Origin: Ignavibacteriota bacterium
GTDB taxonomy: Bacteria; Bacteroidota; Ignavibacteria; Tepidaquicellales; Tepidaquicellaceae
Direction of reading: 5' to 3'
Assembly (NCBI GenBank): GCA_026390735.1
Contig: JAPLFJ010000034.1
Span: 1-64,000, forward strand
Length of the DNA stretch: 64,000 nt
Position numbers and translations under genes: made by a program. The notes under the pieces were generated by a model, which saw only the letters and a program-made list of their open reading frames with translations, was not told the origin of the DNA and did not search any database. This document shows positions 37,401-56,530 of the stretch, piece by piece. The stretch's first letter is position 1. Each line of letters opens with the position of its first letter.

Positions 37401-37572
37401 AGCTGTGAATAGGCTGCTTTAAAGTGCTGCAAAGATCAATATTCCAAATACTCCAAGTAGTAAAAAAAACACAAGTCCATAAAGAGATCCCTTTAATTTG
37501 TTTATCACTTAATAGTTTGTCAATATTAATGATAGCAGCAAAAGTCCGAATAACATTGCATTTATAAATTCG
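37401..37572 (-). pseudogene. Decayed second copy of the PQ-loop membrane gene
   Basis: This stretch resembles the gene at 38464-38730 closely at the DNA level: matching words include AACATTGCATTTATAAA, TCCCTTTAATTTGTTTATC, CACAAGTCCATA and TACTCCAAGTAGTAAAAAA. The reading frame is interrupted several times. It lies 3' of the DUF4349 gene and overlaps its stop codon, so a duplicate unit has been truncated and worn down. Confidence 0.75.
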
Positions 37573-38467
37573 ATTTTGATGATTTTCTTTTCTTTAAATA
37601 TTTTCTAACAAACAACAAAATTATTAAAATAATCACGATGTATGGAAAAGTCGCAATTATCATAGATATAGAAGCAGACATATTATTTGTTAATCCCCAT
37701 AAACCATGTTCAATCGCCTGTCCAATTTCATAAAAGAATCCTCTCCTCGATGTTGTTGCTTCTATTATAGGTTCATTTATATTTAGAGTAAGAGTTGACA
37801 AATCGGATTGTGATCTTAACAATTTCATCTTTCCCTCTATACTTTCTATCTTTTGCCTTACAGATGAAAGTTTTTCCTCCACTTCAATAACCTCTGTCAA
37901 TTTTCCCGCTTTTTCATTCAACAGCTTAGTGATTCTTTGCTCAAGATCTCTTTGTGTTTTTATTCTTGCTTCTAAATCTACAAACTCTGCTGTGACATCA
38001 TTTGCCTGAACGCTTTGACTTATAACTTTACCGATTTTGCCTGCATCCGAAATCACAGCATCGAATTTATCGGCAGGTACTTTCATAGTAATAACACCTG
38101 ATTTACTGCCATTCGAACTTTGATTTGATTTTCCGTTTGCAATATAACCATTGTACTTTTTCACAATATCATTAATTTTAGCCTCGGTCTCATCATACTT
38201 CTCAACTTCAATTGTTAATGAACCTGTTTTTATAATCATCCTTTGATCTTTAATATCCGGAATCTTCTCGTCCTTTTTTCTATCATTATTGATAGGTTGG
38301 TCACTGATATAGTCAGGGCTCCTATTAACAGGCTCTTGGGAATTTACCGATAAATCGCTTGTGATTACTCTTGTGGATGTTAAGTCATTTTCTTTTTCTT
38401 TGCCACATCCCAACACTACGAATACCAAGATAAGTTGTAATGCACAATAAATGATTCTTGTTTTCAT
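37562..38467 (-). CDS. DUF4349 lipoprotein
   Basis: A 301-residue lipoprotein (lipobox VLGC, Cys21). The DUF4349 domain covers about residues 75-300: MIIKTGSLTIEVEKYDE, GVITMKVPADKFDAVI, EYVDLEARI-type segments, a coiled coil (KLTEVIEVEEKLSSVRQKIESIEGKM, split across 190-215) and a C-terminal membrane segment followed by a basic tail (VRKYLKKRKSS). The family is membrane-anchored and of unknown function. Its ATG overlaps the stop of the PQ-loop gene by 4 bp, so they are translationally coupled. An operator shared with other genes of the island lies upstream of the pair. Confidence 0.85.
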   Translation of the reverse strand: MKTRIIYCALQLILVFVVLGCGKEKENDLTSTRVITSDLSVNSQEPVNRSPDYISDQPINNDRKKDEKIPDIKDQRMIIKTGSLTIEVEKYDETEAKINDIVKKYNGYIANGKSNQSSNGSKSGVITMKVPADKFDAVISDAGKIGKVISQSVQANDVTAEFVDLEARIKTQRDLEQRITKLLNEKAGKLTEVIEVEEKLSSVRQKIESIEGKMKLLRSQSDLSTLTLNINEPIIEATTSRRGFFYEIGQAIEHGLWGLTNNMSASISMIIATFPYIVIILIILLFVRKYLKKRKSSKSNL

Positions 38468-38730
38468 ATTATTTCTCTTAAATTTTTATAATAAAACGCT
38501 AATACTAGCCAGACTAGATTTAGAATACACATTAAAACAGAAAAGATAAGACTAACAGGTTGTTGTAATGTGCTGTAAAATCCTATATTCCATATACTCC
38601 AAGTAGTAAAAAACACACAAGTCCATAGCGATATCCCTTTAATTTGTTTATCGCTTATTATTTTGACAATATTAACGATAGTAGCAAAACTTCCGAATAA
38701 CTCAAACATTGCATTTATAAAATCAATCAT
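38464..38730 (-). CDS. Small PQ-loop/SemiSWEET-like membrane protein
   Basis: An 88-residue protein of three membrane segments, with the recognisable KGISLWTCVFFTTWSIWN and FSVLMCILNLVWLVLAFYY segments, in the style of SemiSWEET/PQ-loop half-transporters and related small phage or chromosomal membrane proteins. Transport activity is an inference. It leads an operon with DUF4349 (4-bp overlap) driven by the minus-strand promoter at the 38776 operator: GGGACA-N5-TGTCCC, 11 nt, then TATATTTA. A decayed duplicate lies at 37401-37572. Confidence 0.7.
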   Translation of the reverse strand: MIDFINAMFELFGSFATIVNIVKIISDKQIKGISLWTCVFFTTWSIWNIGFYSTLQQPVSLIFSVLMCILNLVWLVLAFYYKNLREII

Positions 38731-38756: not shown

Positions 38757-38811
38757 TAAATATAAGGAAAACATAGGGACAGAATATGTCCCCGTAGAAG
38801 AATTACATTTA
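38757..38811. promoter_or_regulatory. Operator with two divergent promoters
   Basis: A perfect inverted repeat GGGACA-GAATA-TGTCCC at 38776-38792. Rightward, an 11-nt gap leads to TACATTTA (38804-38811). Leftward, an 11-nt gap leads to TATATTTA (minus strand, 38764-38757). Both boxes fit the Bacteroidota -7 consensus TAnnTTTG except for the last base. It serves the DIP1984 gene and the PQ-loop/DUF4349 operon. Confidence 0.75.
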
Positions 38812-38930: not shown

Positions 38931-39386
38931 ATGAAACTGGCAGAAGCTTTAATAAAAAGAGGTAATTCGCAGAAAAGGATTGAAGTTCTTAGGGAGAAAT
39001 TGCTCAGGTATGCGAAAGTGCAGGAGGGTGATAAACCTGCTGAGAGTCCTGATGATATTTATAAGGAGTTGAATGATAGTTTTAATGAGCTTACTGAGTT
39101 TATTCAGAGGATTAATAAGACAAATGCTGAGGTTTTGTTTGATGATAAAAGAACTATTGCGGATGTTTTGGCATACAGGGATGTGTTGATACAAAAGTAT
39201 AATTTAACAACAAAGTTGATAACTTCGGCAACTGATATTGGCGACAGGTATTCAAAGAAGGAGATTAAGATATTGAGTACTATAGACGTAAAGGAATATC
39301 AGAAAGAAGCGGATAAACTGGCAAAGGAATATAGAGAACTTGATTTGAAGATACAGGAAAAGAACTGGAGTGTCGATCTGTTATAA
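38931..39386 (+). CDS. DIP1984 (septicolysin-like) family protein
   Basis: A 151-residue protein that matches the DIP1984 family along its whole length: MKLAEALIKRGNSQKRIEVL, AKVQEGDKPAES, RINKTNAEVLFDDKRTIADVLA and a C-terminal LDLKIQEKNWSVDL. It is largely helical and cytoplasmic; some members have been called septicolysin, but no activity is established. A clear AAGGAG site precedes the ATG. It is driven rightward from the operator at 38776, which places it in the proposed WYL regulon. Confidence 0.88.
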   Translation: MKLAEALIKRGNSQKRIEVLREKLLRYAKVQEGDKPAESPDDIYKELNDSFNELTEFIQRINKTNAEVLFDDKRTIADVLAYRDVLIQKYNLTTKLITSATDIGDRYSKKEIKILSTIDVKEYQKEADKLAKEYRELDLKIQEKNWSVDLL

Positions 39387-42284: not shown

Positions 42285-43076
42285 ATGGAATATAAGACAA
42301 ATATTTTAACTCCCCTTTTCGGAGCGGTGATTGGTGATGTGATTGGTTCGGTGTTTGAATGGAACAATGTTAAGTCGACTGAGTTTGATTTGTTTTGTGA
42401 TAAGACGGATTTCACTGATGATACGGTTATGTCGATTGCTGTGGCTGATTGTTTGTTAAACGGAAAAGATTATACAAAGACATATCAAGAATACGGCAGG
42501 AAATATCCTTACAGAGGTTACGGAGGATATTTTAATCAGTGGATTAATTTAGAAGAACCAAAACCATATAATAGTTGGGGGAATGGTTCTGCAATGAGAG
42601 TTAGTGCATGCGGATGTTATCACGATACGCTTGAAGAAACCCTTGCTGAAGCCAATAAGAGTGCTATGCCAACTCATAATCACCCCGAAGGAATAAAAGG
42701 TGCTCAGGCAACGGCTGCTGCGATTTTTCTTGCTAGAACCGGTTCGAGTAAAGAAGATATTAAGGATTATATACAGGATAAATTCCGATATAATTTGGAA
42801 AGAAAGATTAATGATATAAGAGAAGTATATGTATTCGATGAAAGTTGCCAGGGAACAGTCCCTGAAGCTATAATTGCGTTTCTTGAAAGCACAGATTTTG
42901 AGAATGCAATAAGACTGGCTATATCCATTGGCGGAGACAGTGATACAATTGCCTGCATAACAGGCGGAATAGCCCTCGCTTACTACAAAGAACTACCTTC
43001 GGAAATATGCAACAAATTATGGGACATATTGCCAGAAGAATTCAAGGAAATAATTGCAAAGTTTAATTTTTTATAA
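42285..43076 (+). CDS. ADP-ribosylglycohydrolase (DraG-like)
   Basis: A 263-residue enzyme of the ADP-ribosylhydrolase fold that removes ADP-ribose from proteins or nucleic acids with two metal ions. FGAVIGDVIGSVFEW starts the fold, FTDDTVMSIAVAD carries the first metal ligands, NGSAMRVSACG follows, and GGDSDTIACITGGIALAYY carries the second set. The target is unknown. It lies in the DUF262 cluster and 18 bp after a truncated DUF262 gene, which hints at use in a defence-type module or as an antidote. Confidence 0.9.
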   Translation: MEYKTNILTPLFGAVIGDVIGSVFEWNNVKSTEFDLFCDKTDFTDDTVMSIAVADCLLNGKDYTKTYQEYGRKYPYRGYGGYFNQWINLEEPKPYNSWGNGSAMRVSACGCYHDTLEETLAEANKSAMPTHNHPEGIKGAQATAAAIFLARTGSSKEDIKDYIQDKFRYNLERKINDIREVYVFDESCQGTVPEAIIAFLESTDFENAIRLAISIGGDSDTIACITGGIALAYYKELPSEICNKLWDILPEEFKEIIAKFNFL

Positions 43077-45075: not shown

Positions 45076-46341
45076 TTATTTACCGAAACCAAAACCGCGA
45101 TCGGTTTCTATCTGTGATTTATAAAACCCCTTATAGTTTCTGTTAAGATACTTCATCAAATCGTCGAATGAAAAGTTCGGGTTCATTTCTGACATTATCT
45201 TTATCTGTTTTATTAGATTAACTATGTATGCACCTGATACTTTCTTACCTTCCATGAAATTCAATACTTCATCAGTGAAGAGGTTTAAGATTTTCTCTTC
45301 CTTTGTATGGTTTAGGATTAAATCCATATAGTATTTTCTTTCAAAGTCGCCGAAGTCGATTATTTCATCGAACCTTCCCGGTCGAGATGCTGCCATATCA
45401 ACAAGTTTCTTATCGTTGGTGGTTGCTATCAGGAAGAACTTATTCTGCATTATGCCGTCCAACATTGTAAGAAACTTATTGAGGTTTCTTTTTCCATAGC
45501 CTTCATCCCTTTTACCGAATATTAAATCAATATCATCAATACAAACAAGTACCGGTGAGAATAACTTTGCAAATTCAAAGACGAGCCAGTCTGCACCGCT
45601 CATATCTTTTGGTATTACTACACACCCATTAGGTGAGCAACTGCTGATTATAGAACGGATGATTTCTGTTTTGCCAAGACCAGGTTTACCAGATAACAAG
45701 TAGCGTAAAGGGGTATTGTGCTTTTCAAAGTTATTAAAAGTATAAATGAATCTTTCAATATCAGCTTTAATATCATCTTTAATAAAAACATTATTGATAT
45801 TGCTCTCAGGTGGTTTTATAAAATTGACACTAAGGTTACTTACTACTTCACGTTCGTTATTGTGTAATCCGATTTCACAACATCCTTTTCTGAAAACAGA
45901 AGTATAATGAAACGCAAGACGCAGAAGTTCGTGACCAATTCTTTCTTCAGGTTCCTGGTTTTTAGGGTATGAGAAATTCAAGTAATAGTGCGTAAGTCTG
46001 GATCTATCGACCTCGATATACATATTAAGTAAGTAGTGAACACCCATACATTCGAACTCACAAGTAGTGTTGTCTACACAAGCCTCGAGGGTAGTATTAT
46101 ACTCTACAAATGTGATGGGATTCATATACCCATCTGCACTATGAGAGAACATTCTTTTAACATTAAAATCTGGGATAGCAATTTTATCTTCATATACATT
46201 TACAAGAAGCTTAAATATTTCTTTGAAGTAGAATTTGTTAAATTCATAGTTTATTCTTTTTTTAGCATAATCAACCTTGTTTCCGAAGTGAACTTTCCCG
46301 TTTCCGTTCACGTACGCCTCGCTATTTGCTTTGTTATCCAT
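45076..46341 (-). CDS. AAA+ ATPase in the WYL-operator regulon
   Basis: The start is the ATG at 46341, giving 421 residues; a TTG start at 46362 lies inside the -7 box and is rejected. Residues of about 1-200 are a unique N-terminal region. The AAA+ domain follows, with Walker A SGKPGLGKT, Walker B VLVCIDDID, sensor 1 in FFLIATTNDK and the SRPGRFDE arginine-finger region. A C-terminal lid holds EKILNLFTDEVLNF. The fold remodels proteins or nucleic acids. The operator at 46379 with TATATTTG 11 nt downstream controls it, together with the 45-residue membrane protein. Confidence 0.85.
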   Translation of the reverse strand: MDNKANSEAYVNGNGKVHFGNKVDYAKKRINYEFNKFYFKEIFKLLVNVYEDKIAIPDFNVKRMFSHSADGYMNPITFVEYNTTLEACVDNTTCEFECMGVHYLLNMYIEVDRSRLTHYYLNFSYPKNQEPEERIGHELLRLAFHYTSVFRKGCCEIGLHNNEREVVSNLSVNFIKPPESNINNVFIKDDIKADIERFIYTFNNFEKHNTPLRYLLSGKPGLGKTEIIRSIISSCSPNGCVVIPKDMSGADWLVFEFAKLFSPVLVCIDDIDLIFGKRDEGYGKRNLNKFLTMLDGIMQNKFFLIATTNDKKLVDMAASRPGRFDEIIDFGDFERKYYMDLILNHTKEEKILNLFTDEVLNFMEGKKVSGAYIVNLIKQIKIMSEMNPNFSFDDLMKYLNRNYKGFYKSQIETDRGFGFGK

Positions 46342-46359
46342 ATGATAATTTAATTTATA

Positions 46360-46395
46360 CAAATATACGGATAAGAGGTGGACAGATGGTGTCCT
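46360..46395 (-). promoter_or_regulatory. Operator and -7 box of the AAA+ operon
   Basis: AGGACA-CCATC-TGTCCA (46395 to 46379, minus strand), an 11-nt gap and TATATTTG (46367-46360), a full match to TAnnTTTG. The start codon at 46341 follows about 18 nt after the box. Confidence 0.75.
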
Positions 46396-46474: not shown

Positions 46475-47464
46475 CTATTTATAATTCGTAATTGCATCTT
46501 TTAACTCTTTAATAATAAGCTCTCTAAATTCCTTCGGCTGGATTACTTCACAATCTTTACCAAGAGAAAGTGCCCACATAAACAGTTCAGTTAAATCATT
46601 TACCTTATATTCAAGAATTACTGAGCCGTCTTTCTGTTCTGTCATCTTCTCAGAACTATGCCTTTTCTTTTCCTTAATATACCTTACTGAGTCATTCATT
46701 ATTTTCATCTTCACATTGTAAGTCTGCTTACTCTCAAAAATACCAAAACTGTCGGCAAAGTAATTTTCAATATTGAAAGAATCAGGTACCTCGAAATGCT
46801 GATTTGTTAATTTAATCTCTTTAATACGGCTCATCGCAAAGACTTTTACCTGATTAGCTTTATGGCAATGACCGATAATGTACCAGTCGCCGTAATGGTT
46901 CTTCATGTGGTATACATCAATAAGTCTTTCGGATACCGTACCGCTCCAGCCTGTTGTGTATATCATTTTACAGCGGATATTTTCCCTAAGCCCACGTTCC
47001 GTTGTCTCCATTACTTCTTCTGATACATATCTGACAGGCCCGATATAAAAGCTAAGGATTTTATCTATATCAGCTATGCTTACGGAAAGTTTGCCTTCGT
47101 AAATGTTCGCTATTTTCTTGTAGAAGGACTTAAAATACTTGGAATATGGGCTGTTCTTATATTGTTCAAGGACTTTTTCGGTAACGGCAATTGCCAGGAA
47201 ATCACTTGCATCAACCGTAAGGGGATTCATTCTGAATCGTTCGTCTGTGTAATAGAAGCCAAGATGTTTTTTGTCGAATTCAATAGGAGCATCATATTCA
47301 AACTTCATAAACTCAATATCCCGCTGAATAGTTTTTTCTGATACATCAAGATGATTTGCGAGTCTTTCTTTGTTAGGGAAACGCTTCTGACCGATTTCTC
47401 TATCTATAACGGCAATTCTTTTAAGCAGTGATTTGCTGACCGTTGTATTCTTTTGTTTTGACAT
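46475..47464 (-). CDS. WYL-domain regulator, likely master of the shared operator
   Basis: A 329-residue regulator. The N-terminal winged helix (about 8-60) includes FPNKERLANHLDVSEKTIQRDIEFM. A WYL domain (about 145-240) contains MIYTTGWSGTVSERLIDVYHMKNHYGDWYIIGH, split as KMIYTTGWSG and YHMKNHYGDWYIIGHCHKAN. A C-terminal WCX-like part ends in FRELIIKELKDAI. The shared operator lies between it and the divergent gene at 47584, with a minus-strand box TATTTTTG 11 nt from the operator, so autoregulation is expected. PafBC and DriD are known WYL activators of DNA-damage responses; kinship in mode of action is an inference. Confidence 0.85.
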   Translation of the reverse strand: MSKQKNTTVSKSLLKRIAVIDREIGQKRFPNKERLANHLDVSEKTIQRDIEFMKFEYDAPIEFDKKHLGFYYTDERFRMNPLTVDASDFLAIAVTEKVLEQYKNSPYSKYFKSFYKKIANIYEGKLSVSIADIDKILSFYIGPVRYVSEEVMETTERGLRENIRCKMIYTTGWSGTVSERLIDVYHMKNHYGDWYIIGHCHKANQVKVFAMSRIKEIKLTNQHFEVPDSFNIENYFADSFGIFESKQTYNVKMKIMNDSVRYIKEKKRHSSEKMTEQKDGSVILEYKVNDLTELFMWALSLGKDCEVIQPKEFRELIIKELKDAITNYK

Positions 47465-47510: not shown

Positions 47511-47565
47511 CAAAAATAAACACAATACAGGGACATATCCTGTCTCGAAGAAATAATTATATTTA
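47511..47565. promoter_or_regulatory. WYL-gene divergent operator and promoters
   Basis: GGGACA-TATCC-TGTCTC at 47530-47546. Rightward, 11 nt then TATATTTA (47558-47565) serves the gene at 47584. Leftward, 11 nt then TATTTTTG (minus strand, 47518-47511) serves the WYL gene. Confidence 0.78.
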
Positions 47566-47583
47566 GAATAAACAAATAATAAT

Positions 47584-48363
47584 ATGGATAATAAAATAAT
47601 TCATACGTTTCCTTTAGAGGAATTAAATCTGATACTTGGCGGGATTAAAGAAAGAACGATAAATTACTTCAATCTAATAATAAGAAAAGTTGACGGTGAG
47701 GATGAATCTTTTGAGTTAATAAAGAATCAGCAATTGAGAGAGACTGACCCTGTTATTGTCCTTAGGGAAGTGTTTAACAACTTTGCTAAGTCATTTGATA
47801 TTACGAAAAATGATGAATCACTTCTCATTATTAATTATTTGAAGATTGCGAAAGAAGTGAGAAGATATTTTCAGAATATAGAAGTTGATATTGAAAGCAT
47901 TTATGAAGACCATAAAGATATATATGATTTTATGGAGTATCTCAACGATAATCCGATAATTAAAGACCTTGAGAAAAAAGTGGCTGAAGTAACTGAAAAA
48001 AATGGAAGTTTAATAATATTTAATGTGACAGATGGGATTAGTTTTGATGAGCTAATTTATGTAGATACTCCAAAAGATTTTGCGGAGAACAATATTATGG
48101 TAAATGCGGACAAAGTTCTGTTTGATAATGTGATTGTAAAGATTGATAATGGATTTCACCAATACCCATATCCATTTACTGGATTAAAGGAGAAGAACTA
48201 CAATGAAATATTATGTACAAAGACGCTTAGATTGTATAAGACTCTCAGTTTTGATGTGGAACTGGATGATGATAACCCGGAATTCGGAAAGAATGGGATT
48301 TATCATTATTACTCATTTATGAGAAGGGCAAATATTCTATGCGGAGAAATTGAAAAGAAATGA
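47584..48363 (+). CDS. Hypothetical cytoplasmic protein in WYL regulon
   Basis: A 259-residue, acidic, mostly helical protein with no signal or membrane segment. I do not recognise it. The first half is helical (VFNNFAKSFDITKND, INYLKIAKEVRRYFQNI), the second half mixed (LIIFNVTDGISFDELIYVD, NADKVLFDNVIVKIDNG). It is divergent from the WYL gene and is driven by the rightward promoter of the shared operator. The next gene, 73 bp downstream, has its own operator copy. Confidence 0.6.
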   Translation: MDNKIIHTFPLEELNLILGGIKERTINYFNLIIRKVDGEDESFELIKNQQLRETDPVIVLREVFNNFAKSFDITKNDESLLIINYLKIAKEVRRYFQNIEVDIESIYEDHKDIYDFMEYLNDNPIIKDLEKKVAEVTEKNGSLIIFNVTDGISFDELIYVDTPKDFAENNIMVNADKVLFDNVIVKIDNGFHQYPYPFTGLKEKNYNEILCTKTLRLYKTLSFDVELDDDNPEFGKNGIYHYYSFMRRANILCGEIEKK

Positions 48364-48378
48364 ATTTGATTAAATACC

Positions 48379-48414
48379 AGGACAGGTTTTGTCTTACAAC
48401 AACTCATATATTTA
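48379..48414 (+). promoter_or_regulatory. Operator and -7 box of the envelope operon
   Basis: AGGACA-GGTTT-TGTCTT at 48379-48395, an 11-nt gap and TATATTTA at 48407-48414, 22 nt before the ATG at 48437. Confidence 0.72.
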
Positions 48415-48436
48415 TTAAAATTAAATAATAAACATT

Positions 48437-49330
48437 ATGAAACAGAGTAAAGATGTTAAATTCATCATATATCAGGTTCTCTATATATTCATCATTGTTG
48501 TCATGACTTTGAAGGGAGCTGATATAGACCTCAATTTGGTAAAAAATGCAGATGATGTTGTTCTTAAATCCTCGTCTGATTCATTGAAGTTGAAAATTGA
48601 TTCATTACTTGCTCTTGGTGTAAAGCCGGAAGATATACTTCGTGAAAGACAGGACAACATTGCGAGTTCAGATCCAATAATTGTTATTAAAGGAGGTTTT
48701 GGTTCTGATGGAAGTGATGGTGCAGGTAAGGATATCATAACTACTGATGATGGAAAGAAGAAAGAAGATATAACTCAGCCTACAAAGGATATTCAGCTTG
48801 AGATTCAGAAACCTGTGCAGTACAGAGTTAATCAGGTTTCGGTTAACAGGAACAGCGAGCCGCTATATATTTACGGGGACGGGAAGCTTCTTACTACTGT
48901 AGCACCGAACCAAAGCGGAAGTTTTCTTTTAAAGGGTGAAAGCGTAGTGGTTTATAAATGCGGTAATACAGAGAAACAGACAGGAACGAAGGAAAATGAG
49001 ACACAATCGCTAACCTTTCAGTCAATCAATGCAGGGAATTCAGAAAAGAGTCTTAGAGAGCTTCAGGCAACCGTTGGATGGAGGGTAACAGTGAAGGATG
49101 ATTATTACGACCAGATTGAAGTGAAGATAACAGGACCTGTAAAGATTGAGGAAAAAGGAAAAGGCACGTATGATTTAAAACTTTATCTATGTGGAAGCAA
49201 GGATCAGTTCGATAGGATGTTCGGGGATAAGGAAGCACCTTATAGGGCAAATTTTACAGTAACAGCAACAGATAAAATTTCAGGTAAGAAGGTAAGCCAA
49301 ATGAGGGAGTTTATTTTTGGTGAATGGTAA
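48437..49330 (+). CDS. Membrane-anchored hypothetical protein
   Basis: A 297-residue protein with one N-terminal membrane anchor (about 9-26, FIIYQVLYIFIIVVMTL) and an extracytoplasmic body. A helical DSLKLKIDSLLALGVKPEDI stretch is followed by a glycine-rich linker, then beta-rich domains (PLYIYGDGKLLTTVAPNQSG; ANFTVTATDKISGKKVSQM). The anchor-plus-beta layout faintly recalls GldM-like envelope proteins, but this is not a family match. It leads an operon of three genes with exported and unknown proteins, under its own operator copy. Confidence 0.6.
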   Translation: MKQSKDVKFIIYQVLYIFIIVVMTLKGADIDLNLVKNADDVVLKSSSDSLKLKIDSLLALGVKPEDILRERQDNIASSDPIIVIKGGFGSDGSDGAGKDIITTDDGKKKEDITQPTKDIQLEIQKPVQYRVNQVSVNRNSEPLYIYGDGKLLTTVAPNQSGSFLLKGESVVVYKCGNTEKQTGTKENETQSLTFQSINAGNSEKSLRELQATVGWRVTVKDDYYDQIEVKITGPVKIEEKGKGTYDLKLYLCGSKDQFDRMFGDKEAPYRANFTVTATDKISGKKVSQMREFIFGEW

Positions 49331-49358
49331 ACAATAGAATATATAATTATATTTAGGA

Positions 49359-50639
49359 GTGAAAACAGTCACATACATAATTACATTCATTTTAATGTGC
49401 TCATTTATATTGAGTGCAAGTGATGCATATTGTTTAACATTTAAATACAATAATATTTCAGAAGTCAATATCGAAACACCCAAGAAACCAAAGCTAACGT
49501 TTATTGATAAAGTATATTTTGGACATTCAAAAAGGAAACAAGAACTGGGCGGAGTAAACTGCATATTTAATGATGGGAATTACTTATTGCTGGGAACTGA
49601 GACAGGACTTGTGAGATTTAATAAAAGGAATTATAGATCTGAAAGAATAAGTTCAAAAAGATATAACATTCAGAAAGTTGTAAAGGATAAAGGCGTTTAC
49701 TGGATGGTTGTTGAAGACAATATTTTAGAGAAGGGAAAGCTAGTTAAATACAGAAATGGAATATTTAGTACGATATATAAAGCTAAAGAGAGTGTGCTAA
49801 GTTTTGATGTGCTGAAATCCGGGAAGAATGAAGGTGTATGGATTATAAAGGAAGAAAATGGAGCTGGATACAAGGATAAGTTTGGTAATTTTTGTTCAAC
49901 CAAAAAGTTCATTGTGAAAAATACTCTTTCAGGTCTGAAAAAGAGTTCTTTTATGCTGGATGCAGGAATATTTGATTACAGGACGGACAACAAAGGTACG
50001 CTTTGGATAGCAAGCAGTAAAGGGATATATGAAATAAGCCTTGGAAAAAAGAATAAGCTTATATCAAACAGGTTTGAATACATTACAAAAAAACTTCAAA
50101 TATTAAATAACAGTAACACTGTTCATTTTATAAGTGGTGATACTTTATACAGCATCGATGATAGTAAATTGAATATTAAGGAATACAGATTAGGAATTAG
50201 TGGCACTATTTATGTTAATAATTCTTATTTAAAGCACATAGAGAATATCGGCGTTGATGATAATGCTTGTACAAGTGGAATAATTGAAATAAAGGAAAGT
50301 ACTATGAAGATATTTAATGAAAGTGGTTTGGTTAACGATACAGGAAAAGTGTTAAACTTATTAAAAGAACACCTCAATGAAGATTACATGGATTATGTAA
50401 AGACTTATAATATTTTACCTAACGGCAACTTTATCTTCCTTGTATCAGGACACGGGCGAGCAGTACACTGTTTTGATGGGGTTTATATGTTTGATGGAGA
50501 GAAAGCAGTCCAGATAGGTTATTTAACCAGCAGTGAGCAAATGATAATTGACAGGAATAGAGTATGGATTCCCGATGGTGCTGACTGGCATATGGTTCCA
50601 AAAGGAATTGGCGGCGGACTTTATCTTTATGAATATTAA
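49359..50639 (+). CDS. Exported two-component-propeller-like protein
   Basis: A 426-residue protein starting with GTG at 49359, 28 bp after the upstream gene, and a signal peptide (1-26). The body has propeller-like blades: GVNCIFNDGNYLLLGTETGL, DNKGTLWIASSKGIYEIS and GRAVHCFDGVYMFDGEKAV. The DxxGxLWIAxxxGI pattern is typical of the regulator-propeller repeat in Bacteroidota sensors and exported relatives. No T9SS sorting domain is present. It probably senses or binds a ligand outside the inner membrane. Confidence 0.6.
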   Translation: MKTVTYIITFILMCSFILSASDAYCLTFKYNNISEVNIETPKKPKLTFIDKVYFGHSKRKQELGGVNCIFNDGNYLLLGTETGLVRFNKRNYRSERISSKRYNIQKVVKDKGVYWMVVEDNILEKGKLVKYRNGIFSTIYKAKESVLSFDVLKSGKNEGVWIIKEENGAGYKDKFGNFCSTKKFIVKNTLSGLKKSSFMLDAGIFDYRTDNKGTLWIASSKGIYEISLGKKNKLISNRFEYITKKLQILNNSNTVHFISGDTLYSIDDSKLNIKEYRLGISGTIYVNNSYLKHIENIGVDDNACTSGIIEIKESTMKIFNESGLVNDTGKVLNLLKEHLNEDYMDYVKTYNILPNGNFIFLVSGHGRAVHCFDGVYMFDGEKAVQIGYLTSSEQMIIDRNRVWIPDGADWHMVPKGIGGGLYLYEY

Positions 50640-50656
50640 AATTGTTGACGTAAATT

Positions 50657-51439
50657 ATGAAACATCGTAAAAGTTTAGTTTTCAAGAGAAATAATCACGA
50701 TAGGGATATGTGGAAGAGATGGACAGTAGAAAGCGATAATAAGTTAGAGTTAAGGAATATATTTTTCCGTTCATTCTTTTATGCAGCGGAACAGTTTGAA
50801 GTAAGAATAATGTCAATTTTTGTAAAAATAACAAGGAGCTTAGTATTCTGTGGTTCTAAAATGACAGAAGAAATGTTTTTAAGTCAAATGGACACTGCCC
50901 CAGATTACAAAGTAATCGGATACAGAAAAGTTGAGTTGGATGAAATCATATCTAAAGAATGGTTTCCCACTTTTATGGAAGGATTCAATAATCCTATTTT
51001 TAATAAAGAGCAATTAAATCAAGATATAAAACAACCATTCGCATATTACGTTGTCTATGACTTAAGGAAACAATTACCGGAAGAATATACTTACAATAGG
51101 TTTAGAATTCTTTACGTCTGTGGAGAACCAGTAAGTACATATCATGCATTGTATTATTCGAATAAGGGCTATCCAGAGTTTGTTGCAAGAATTTATAATA
51201 AATTTCATAGCAAAAATGAACTGCTAACAGAGGAAGGGGAACAACTTCATAGTGCTGTGATAAATAATCCTTATGGGAAACCCAAAGCTATTCTTATAGG
51301 AGGAGGTGACAACGTAAGGAACAACCATGATATTCCTATTTGGAAAGAATACAAACTCGATTCAAAGTTTATGATGCAATACGGAATACATGTTGAGGAT
51401 AATATTGTGATATGGAGTAGGAAGATCCCATTAAATTAA
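50657..51439 (+). CDS. Hypothetical protein in WYL regulon operon
   Basis: A 260-residue protein that I do not recognise, 17 bp after the propeller-like gene in the same direction. The start is basic (KHRKSLVFKRNNHDRDMWKRW). A central block mixes strands and helices (PDYKVIGYRKVELDEIISKEW; QPFAYYVVYDLRKQLPEEYTY), and the last third has KPKAILIGGGDNVRNNHDIPIW. The gene closes the operon; the deiminase gene that follows has its own operator. No signal or catalytic signature is evident. Confidence 0.6.
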   Translation: MKHRKSLVFKRNNHDRDMWKRWTVESDNKLELRNIFFRSFFYAAEQFEVRIMSIFVKITRSLVFCGSKMTEEMFLSQMDTAPDYKVIGYRKVELDEIISKEWFPTFMEGFNNPIFNKEQLNQDIKQPFAYYVVYDLRKQLPEEYTYNRFRILYVCGEPVSTYHALYYSNKGYPEFVARIYNKFHSKNELLTEEGEQLHSAVINNPYGKPKAILIGGGDNVRNNHDIPIWKEYKLDSKFMMQYGIHVEDNIVIWSRKIPLN

Positions 51440-51482
51440 TATCAAATGAAATATTCTCAGACTTTTAATAATTCGCAATTCC

Positions 51483-51518
51483 AGGACACACTTTGTCCCC
51501 AATCACTTAATACATTCA
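51483..51518 (+). promoter_or_regulatory. Operator of the deiminase gene (decides its start)
   Basis: AGGACA-CACTT-TGTCCC at 51483-51499, an 11-nt gap and TACATTCA at 51511-51518. It lies inside the longest open frame (from 51446), which shows that translation begins downstream, at the ATG at 51533. Confidence 0.65.
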
Positions 51519-51532
51519 AAGAAAACATAAGA

Positions 51533-52501
51533 ATGAAAAACAAAGAAATACTCGCAATGGTATTCCCATATGGACTGTTCAACAAATACTTGAAATTCTA
51601 TGATGAGTTTTTGAAAGATTATATATTCGAAATTCAGGATGAAATTAGAATAATATTAATCGTTACCAACCTTCAGGCAAAACAAGTATTAGAAGACAAG
51701 TTTGCAGGTAATAAATTTGAAATATTGCTTATACCAGAAGCAGTTGACATCTGGATAAGAGACTGGGCTCCTATACCAGTTAAATTTGGCAAAGGAAAGA
51801 TAATTTATCTAAAACCTAATTTCACGACTGGTTATTATAAAGGATATTATCAAAGTTATATACCAAAGTTAAAAATAGCAAGCGATAAGTTATCAGAATA
51901 TCTTGGGATTAAGGTTATTGAGTTGCCTCTGAATACAGATGGTGGCAATTTTGCTTTCAATGGCAAGGATACCATTATATTAACGAACAGAATAATATCG
52001 AATAATGAAACCTTGTCTATTGATGAAATTAGAAATATTTACAAAAGAACATTGGGGATTAAAAACGTAATATTCGTCCCTGTTGAACCTGGTGATATAA
52101 CAGGACACACAGACGGGACATTAAGGTTTATTGATTATAAGACTATTATTATTGGTAAATATCCTAAAAAGTACAAAGAAGAGAATATGTTCGCTGAAGA
52201 ACTTACAAAAGAATTAGGCACACAACTTGGGAATAATTGTAAGATTATACGAATTGAGAATGAAATTTTAGATGATGGAAACGGAAAGTCGGATATTTTA
52301 TCAGCGTCAGGAAATTATATAAATTTTCTGAAAATCAACAATAAGATATTTCTGCCAATTTATGGAACTCAATCAGATGAAAAGGCATATTACTCACTAA
52401 AAACTAGTGTTTCTAGATATGATATCTTAAAAGTGAAGGCGAAGGAGTTAATTAAGATTTCAAAAGCTGGTGGGGTTTTAAATTGTATTACTTGGGGTTA
52501 A
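51533..52501 (+). CDS. Agmatine deiminase-family enzyme
   Basis: A 322-residue enzyme of the guanidino-group-modifying fold. Motifs are VDIWIRDWAPIPV, LNTDGGNFAFNG, DITGHTDGTLRF and GGVLNCITWG with the catalytic Cys318. These fit agmatine deiminase and Porphyromonas-type arginine deiminase; the substrate cannot be chosen from sequence alone. No signal peptide is visible, so it is cytoplasmic. The start at 51533 replaces a 29-residue longer frame that would overlap the operator. It is the last gene in the rightward run under the shared operator. Confidence 0.8.
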   Translation: MKNKEILAMVFPYGLFNKYLKFYDEFLKDYIFEIQDEIRIILIVTNLQAKQVLEDKFAGNKFEILLIPEAVDIWIRDWAPIPVKFGKGKIIYLKPNFTTGYYKGYYQSYIPKLKIASDKLSEYLGIKVIELPLNTDGGNFAFNGKDTIILTNRIISNNETLSIDEIRNIYKRTLGIKNVIFVPVEPGDITGHTDGTLRFIDYKTIIIGKYPKKYKEENMFAEELTKELGTQLGNNCKIIRIENEILDDGNGKSDILSASGNYINFLKINNKIFLPIYGTQSDEKAYYSLKTSVSRYDILKVKAKELIKISKAGGVLNCITWG

Positions 52502-54987: not shown

Positions 54988-55979
54988 TTATTGATCAATC
55001 TCTATTTTTGTTTTTCTATTCTTTATATATTTTTTCCAAATCTAGAATACTATTAAAGCTAAGAGTGCTATCGGAATTACTGCAATTATGATTGTTATAC
55101 AAACAGAAATAATTTTTGTAAAGGAAGAAAATCCATTTTAAACGCTTGTTTAAGTTCAAAAAAGAATCCATCGTCTGACTGGATAGGAATAATAATAATA
55201 GGTGGTTCGGTGACGTTTAAAGTGAGAGTTGACAAACTCGATTGAGATTTCAATAATTTCATTCTCCCTTCGGTCTTTTCAATCTTTTCTCTTACAGAAG
55301 CAAGTTTCTCTTCAATTTCAAAAATATCTGCCAATTTTGACACTTTTTCATTAAGGAGTTTAACAATTCTTTTCTCCAGTTCTTTTTGCGTTTTCAGTCT
55401 TGCCTCTAAATCAACGTACTCTTCCGTAACATCGTTTGCCTGAATATTTTGATTCAATACTTTACCTATTTTATTTACATCCGAGATTAATTCGTCAAAC
55501 TTAACAGCAGGTACTTTTACGATAAAAGTCCCTGATTTATTTGAAATTGAACTTTGATTTGATTTGTTGTTAACAATGTATCCGTTGTACTTTGTTATAA
55601 CCTCATTAATTTTAACCTCTGCATCACCATATTTATCTAGCTCAATGGTTATATTACCTGCTTTGATTATCATCCTATGGTCTTTAACATCGGGAATATC
55701 TTTATCAATTTTTCTATTTACATCAGTGGTGGGGTCGTTCTTTTCAATAACATGTGTTCTATTGTTAAGTTCGGGTGACTCTTGAATTTGAGAATTAGAA
55801 GGATTTATGTATTCAGAATATTTTTTAGTGTTTGAAGGATATTCAGGTTCAAGAGATTTATTAAGTTAGACGTTTGATTGATTAACAGGGACTTTCTTCC
55901 TTTCTGTATTATCATCACAACCGAATACTGAATAAGCCAGAAGCAGGGATAATGTGTAACAAATAATTTTTATTTTCAT
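54988..55979 (-). pseudogene. Second DUF4349 gene, inactivated
   Basis: From an ATG at 55979 the minus strand reads a lipoprotein start (lipobox FGC), then an in-frame TAA at 55868-55866 (codon 38), a linker and a DUF4349 domain like that at 37562-38467 (MIIKAGNITIELDKYGDAEV, EYVDLEARLKTQKELEKRI). Near 55125-55140 a frameshift leads into FSSFTKIISVCITIIIAVIP, the membrane segment, which is interrupted by one TAG before IWKKYIKN. So there are two stops and a frameshift. An open part remains at 55095-55673. It keeps an operator-like promoter at 56044. Confidence 0.78.
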
Positions 55980-56530
55980 GATATTTGGTTTTATTTTAAA
56001 TATCTAGAATATTCATTCTACAGTACAAATATATAAAAGCAGAGAGACAAAGTGAGTCCCTGTATTTTTAATGTTGTTCGACCCACCCGCCAAAGAACAT
56101 AGCAAACGTTCTCCACGATGAATCTGCGACACAAAACGCGAGAGTCGGGTTTTCGACATCGAGGTTGAGGGTTTAGATATTGTTTCTGATAGGAATTTAT
56201 AAAGCGAGCCGCACGCTGCGGCGGGTCTTTGACTTCGAGGGTTCGGAACTACAGATATGGAATATGTTTTGTTTCCGTCAAGAATGACGGAAGTACAGAT
56301 ATGGAATCTTTACTGGATTTGGAATTGTTTCCGTCAAGAATGACGGGACTACAGATATGGAATCTTTACTGGATTTGGAATTGTTTCTGACAAGAATGAT
56401 GGAACTACAGATATGGAATCTTTACTGGATTTAGAATTGTTTCTGACAAGAATGATGGAACTATGGGAATAAAATCCCGACTAGATGTTTTTTAGAGTTC
56501 AATCATCTATCTTATATTTTGATGGCGAGA
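55980..56530. repeat. Spacer with 56-bp tandem repeat
   Basis: The left part holds the operator at 56044. At about 56230-56470 a 56-bp unit repeats: ACAGATATGGAATC at 56295, 56351 and 56407, each with GTTTCCGTCAAGAATGACGG or a worn version. GACGG and CCGTC in the unit pair as a small hairpin. One more copy is near 57810. No gene is seen. Confidence 0.7.
56026..56060 (-). promoter_or_regulatory. Operator of the DUF4349 pseudogene
   Basis: Minus strand: GGGACT-CACTT-TGTCTC (56060-56044), a 10-nt gap and TATATTTG (56033-56026). The spacer word CACTTTGTC is identical to that of the 51483 site. Confidence 0.62.

Follow-up and report, generated by a model that had tools for sequence, protein, structure and literature searches.

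A DriD-like WYL regulon with a putative guanidinium deiminase in an Ignavibacteriota bacterium and its possible role in ADP-ribose conflict

Introduction

What does a WYL regulator control when its neighbours are proteins without a family and a relative of the agmatine deiminases? The question was raised by contig JAPLFJ010000034.1 of an Ignavibacteriota bacterium (GCA_026390735.1). Positions 1 to 64,000 of its forward strand, a stretch of 64,000 nucleotides, were analysed and are called the window here; operators were counted in the genome of 4.02 Mb. An earlier note had read five ORFs at 47584-52501 as a single operon of a WYL regulon, in which a ligand-sensing envelope part joined a guanidine-modifying enzyme. 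Here we examined the operator, the protein families and the related genomes.

Results

Genes and transcription units

The five ORFs are open as claimed. They encode, all on the + strand, protein A (47584..48363), protein B (48437..49330), protein C (49359..50639), protein D (50657..51439) and a deiminase of the PAD_porph family (PAD; 51533..52501). The adjoining WYL regulator (46475..47464, -) was borne out by Pfam (WYL 7e-13, WCX 2e-16). On its opposite side lies an AAA ATPase gene (45076..46362, -; Pfam AAA 1e-16), for which an ATG just inside the ORF is a plausible start. The island also contains an ADP-ribosylglycohydrolase (ARG; 42285..43076, +) with the metal motifs TDDT and GDSDT, a DIP1984/DUF6847 protein (38931..39386, +), an 88-aa membrane ORF (38464..38730, -) and several GmrSD/DUF262 genes. 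The 88-aa ORF is 46% identical to an ORF beside an AAA paralogue on contig C14; a partial second copy at 37408-37545 (-) suggests a local duplication. Rfam had no match in the window or in the gaps driven by operators.

One operator type is common to this gene set, as the earlier note had proposed. The palindrome GGACA-N5-TGTCC occurs five times within 12.7 kb (38.8-51.5 kb), three times perfectly and twice, before A/WYL and before B, with one mismatch. GGACAGAATATGTCC (38777..38791) has promoter boxes on both sides, one towards the DIP1984 gene (+), 140 bp downstream, the other towards the divergent 88-aa ORF (-). GGACACCATCTGTCC, read on the - strand (46380..46394), lies upstream of the AAA gene. 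GGACATATCCTGTCT (47531..47545) separates the WYL gene from A; a TAnnTTTG-type box flanks it at 12 bp on either side, i.e. it is bidirectional. GGACAGGTTTTGTCT (48380..48394, +) precedes B, and GGACACACTTTGTCC (51484..51498, +) lies 35 bp upstream of the deiminase start at 51533. The operators at 47531, 48380 and 51484 split the genes into at least three transcription units, A, B-C-D and the deiminase. Because these internal operators divide the genes, the one-operon reading was ruled out and dropped. A degenerate operator-like site at 56045 lies upstream of a second DUF4349 copy (55095-55990, -), which is interrupted by an in-frame stop close to the start.

The operator and a promoter box in fixed register

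With at most one mismatch the operator occurs 48 times in 4.02 Mb; five sites in 12.7 kb compare with 0.15 expected (Poisson P about 6e-7). Only four sites genome-wide are perfect, three in the island and one on contig C18, 145 bp upstream of a paralogue 76% identical to B.

TAnnTTTG is the -7 box of Bacteroidota promoters, the lineage of this bacterium. A similar box was found 12 bp downstream of the operator (11 in G009, one of the two related genomes described below). The register was tested with 16 operator-promoter directions from three genomes and 5000 shuffles. The mean box match was 4.5, whereas the shuffles had a maximum of 3.1 and none of the 5000 reached the observed value (permutation P <= 2e-4). 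The 12-bp register was rigid in 12 of the 16 promoters. As a composite, operator plus box matched nine times genome-wide compared with a single control match, and all nine were either the five regulon sites or upstream of a B paralogue, nowhere else.

The regulator has the architecture HTH + WYL + WCX, as in DriD-like WYL activators. A search of the PDB returned 7tzv/7u02/8tp8 first (E 9e-10 to 3.5e-9), with PafBC (4e-5) and BrxR (9e-4) behind. In keeping with the description in PMC12340889, the top entries, 7tzv, 7u02, 9cu3, 9pfq and 8tp8/8tpk, are regarded here as DriD. The DNA site of DriD is ATACGACAGTAACTGTCGTAT (GACA-GTAAC-TGTC); its sites overlap the -35 element and include one bidirectional example (PMC12340889). 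The GACA-N5-TGTC half-sites and spacer of the present operator are those of DriD, and it sits over the -35/-33 region. As read from the sequences, the fixed register favours an activator without proving activation.

Conservation in other Ignavibacteria

WYL, AAA and PAD occur together in three genomes, the present one and two others, G008 (an Ignavibacteriae MAG, locus L004) and G009 (L047). Both have the same regulator type (64% and 41% identical, respectively) and operator with the AAA gene and a deiminase carrying the GGVLNC motif, and operators are conserved at homologous promoters. The suggested combination of WYL control and a guanidine-modifying enzyme thus recurs under the same operator. 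In G008 the order is AAA-PAD2 (frame of PAD2 broken), two unknowns, WYL, operator, PAD, A, operator, unknown, ARG. In G009 AAA and PAD, which overlap in both genomes, form an operon under operators, and a second AAA and WYL are nearby. The expected conservation of the neighbourhood therefore held for the linkage of A, PAD, WYL and AAA and failed for gene order. Protein A is kept in one of the two other genomes. ARG is present in two of the three and was not found on the G009 contig read; neither locus contains B, C or D.

WYL relatives also adjoin a ribonucleotide reductase gene and have the operator at their 3' side. In four such loci (L071, L072, L074 and L075) operator and promoter box lie between the WYL gene and the reductase gene, and no long ORF precedes the latter. 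A small RNA or a tiny ORF is possible there.

The deiminase is a distinct subfamily

For the deiminase, 51533 is a more probable start than 51446: the longer ORF would enclose operator and promoter, and homology sets in only at Met30. The PAD_porph profile matched with E = 3e-34. In an alignment with 1xkn, Asp, His, Asp and Cys of the catalytic site are retained; EGG is changed to DGG (Glu to Asp) and HC to NC (His to Asn before the Cys). All members with an intact C-terminus end with GGVLNC followed by [IMC][ST], and most have WIRDWAP, DGGN and GHxDG. Judged by these sequence motifs, the GGVLNC proteins are a distinct subfamily of PAD/agmatine-deiminase-like enzymes. The earlier label of an agmatine-deiminase-like enzyme was too specific: the protein missed the curated AguA cut-offs (69.8 vs 381.8; 64.3 vs 483), and agmatine metabolism was dropped on these grounds.

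Relatives were found in Flavobacteriales, Cloacimonadota (one ORF with an HNH-like stretch), viral contigs and Bacteroides phages. One of them is located beside ARPP-1 and an HNH-like gene (L056). A distant relative, annotated as hypothetical, is present in Bacteroides phages DAC19 and others (L113 4719-5771) with an HNH gene close by; the DAC19 copy reads GGCFNC. A PAD near an AAA gene in L228 was set aside as a canonical deiminase paired with a carbon-nitrogen hydrolase gene; the window deiminase has no such hydrolase alongside.

The AAA ATPase family is linked to WYL genes

The AAA family was found at 27 places in a class-wide search. In 12 of 25 loci a WYL gene lies within about 5 kb, which has a probability of about 2e-12 under a generous assumed chance rate of 3%. 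One locus has a WYL-HAD_SAK-AAA-X-ARG run (L227). The neighbours, among which are RNA-repair HAD genes, also include ARPP-1 (L238) and cRec (L232, L234, L235, L049). Previous studies describe BCS1 orthologues of jumbo phages as assembly factors and link cRec to NAD+/ADP-ribose (PMC7824862). For a predicted model (pLDDT 76) Foldseek returned Bcs1 and B. subtilis YjoB as best matches, with TM-scores of about 0.4, at which only the AAA part is secure. The N-domain as a known chaperone fold was dropped because Foldseek gave no separation from the AAA core.

Large viral contigs (L114-L129) contain a conserved YqeY-phosphatase-AAA-NMNAT/Nudix-NAMPT cassette. It carries the AAA family in most of 12 non-duplicate contigs, and nine of the 12 have both NMNAT and NAMPT; the NMNAT label is based on a Nudix match and a reading of the sequence. 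Proteins with a weak or no match to the uracil-DNA-glycosylase family recur near the related loci (L004 4828-5706, L047 5708-6310, L230 7893-8636).

Proteins A to D

Pfam gave nothing firm for A, B, C or D. A relative of A, 36% identical, lies behind the deiminase in G008, and A was not found in plasmids; its predicted fold was not used (mean pLDDT 41). Protein B belongs to a family of single-pass membrane proteins which is multicopy in this genome. In L087, L088, L089 and L097 a gene of about 400 aa that encodes membrane segments precedes the B-family gene, and the two may form a GldL/GldM- or ExbBD-like pair. As neither Pfam nor the PDB gave a match, the idea that B is a GldM-like motor subunit was nevertheless rejected. 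Of the exported propeller proposed for C, an N-terminal signal-like segment stood, whereas the propeller itself had a weak match (Reg_prop E = 0.52). C had no full-length relative in 99 genomes, and D had none in 148 genomes or in viral contigs. The proposed unit of a ligand-sensing envelope part and a deiminase was not supported: the loci of G008 and G009 are without B, C and D, B is multicopy, and C and D have no relatives in these searches. A, B, C and D rather appear as variable accessory parts of the regulon.

Discussion

The operator, its 12-bp register, its restriction to one gene set, its conservation and the linkage of AAA and deiminase to WYL genes were computed directly. Together they strongly support that a DriD-like WYL regulon is real. 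That its role is in NAD+/ADP-ribose conflict, as read from gene neighbourhoods, has about even odds. The same balance applies to the reading as a whole, an inducible DriD-like regulon which is a variant of the WYL/ARG systems proposed to act against ADP-ribosylation and in which a guanidinium deiminase is the new component.

How might such a regulon operate? The WYL protein would occupy GGACA-N5-TGTCC sites at the -33 region of several promoters, in some cases bidirectional ones, and probably activates rather than represses. Its trigger may be a nucleic acid or nucleotide that signals damage or infection, conceivably ssDNA or an ADP-ribose-type nucleotide. The dispersed regulon would then be switched on and its products would answer an NAD+/ADP-ribose-based attack or damage: the Bcs1-like AAA ATPase may remodel modified proteins, ARG may strip ADP-ribose from arginine, and the deiminase may act on guanidinium groups. 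The link between deiminase, ARG and arginine is chemical and suggestive only. We consider it improbable, though worth stating, that in the WYL-induced response the deiminase converts target or ADP-ribosylated arginines to citrulline and so removes or pre-empts the attacker's arginine ADP-ribosylation. Several points speak against the preferred reading. No operator stands immediately before the window ARG (in G008 one is found 426 bp ahead of U13550-ARG), the G009 contig read is without ARG, DriD itself serves the response to DNA damage, the Foldseek scores of the ATPase secure its AAA part only, and PADLOC matched A, B, C, D and the deiminase to no named anti-phage model.

The most serious competitor, to which we give a minor though real chance, is a DNA-damage regulon independent of SOS. 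Here the WYL activator senses ssDNA like DriD and PafBC, and repair and recovery follow without any link to ADP-ribose. Operator, position and PDB ranking fit DriD, and relatives have UDG-like and HNH-like genes nearby; the linked ARG, ARPP-1, cRec, HAD_SAK and NMNAT/NAMPT, however, are of NAD+/ADP-ribose or RNA-repair types. Somewhat less likely is a phage-defence island kept silent by a repressor of the BrxR/CapW type and relieved upon infection. WYL regulators do guard BREX and CBASS (PMC9122588, PMC9122589), GmrSD/DUF262 genes crowd the island, and an operator over -33 is equally compatible with repression. Yet the register kept by 12 of 16 promoters, together with the DriD-type site, favours activation, BrxR was the weakest PDB match, and PADLOC named no defence system. 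We regard a regulon for arginine/polyamine metabolism, with the deiminase acting on agmatine, as very unlikely: the family is PAD_porph with the catalytic residues kept, but the scores are far under the AguA cut-offs, the hydrolase of the canonical L228 pair is not adjoining, and the EGG motif and the residue before the Cys are altered. Chance clustering of a short palindrome beside unrelated genes is hardly credible, since, although reversed control patterns of the operator are at least as common across the genome, clustering, fixed register, the composite count and conserved sites at homologous G008 and G009 promoters all oppose it.

Through a regulon against ADP-ribosylation, with a well-defined operator of DriD-like mode, the NAD+/ADP-ribose conflict network would gain a guanidinium deiminase and an AAA ATPase of the Bcs1-like kind. 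The deiminase subfamily (GGVLNC) and the AAA family singled out here also occur in phage or viral contigs. If the arginine to citrulline reading were true, citrullination would be a part of bacterial immunity.

Comparison with known systems

Like Bcs1 and B. subtilis YjoB, its best Foldseek matches, the window ATPase has an AAA domain; unlike these it lacks an obvious N-terminal membrane helix, and the N-domain match is unproven. The deiminase shares the RD..P, GH.D and C-terminal Cys motifs with PAD_porph/agmatine deiminases (1xkn, 6b10) and differs by DGGN for EGG, NC for HC, and the linkage to WYL and AAA. With the DriD regulon of Caulobacter crescentus (PMC12340889) the locus has in common an HTH-WYL-WCX protein, a GACA-N5-TGTC operator overlapping -35 and a bidirectional promoter; the target genes are others and the promoter box is of the Bacteroidota type. 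The response controlled by DriD is to DNA damage and not to ADP-ribose.

ARG-centric systems regulated by WYL/Nudix proteins, described as negative regulators, were proposed to counter or reverse viral ADP-ribosylation (PMC9503650). As in these, WYL regulator, ARG and a presumed chaperone are present in the locus, phosphatase (in L047 and L050; none among the window genes scanned) and ARPP-1 in relatives, and no ADP-ribosyltransferase was among the genes scanned. Unlike these, the locus has a Bcs1-like AAA ATPase and a GGVLNC deiminase, and several operators in place of one operon, at sites which look activator-type.
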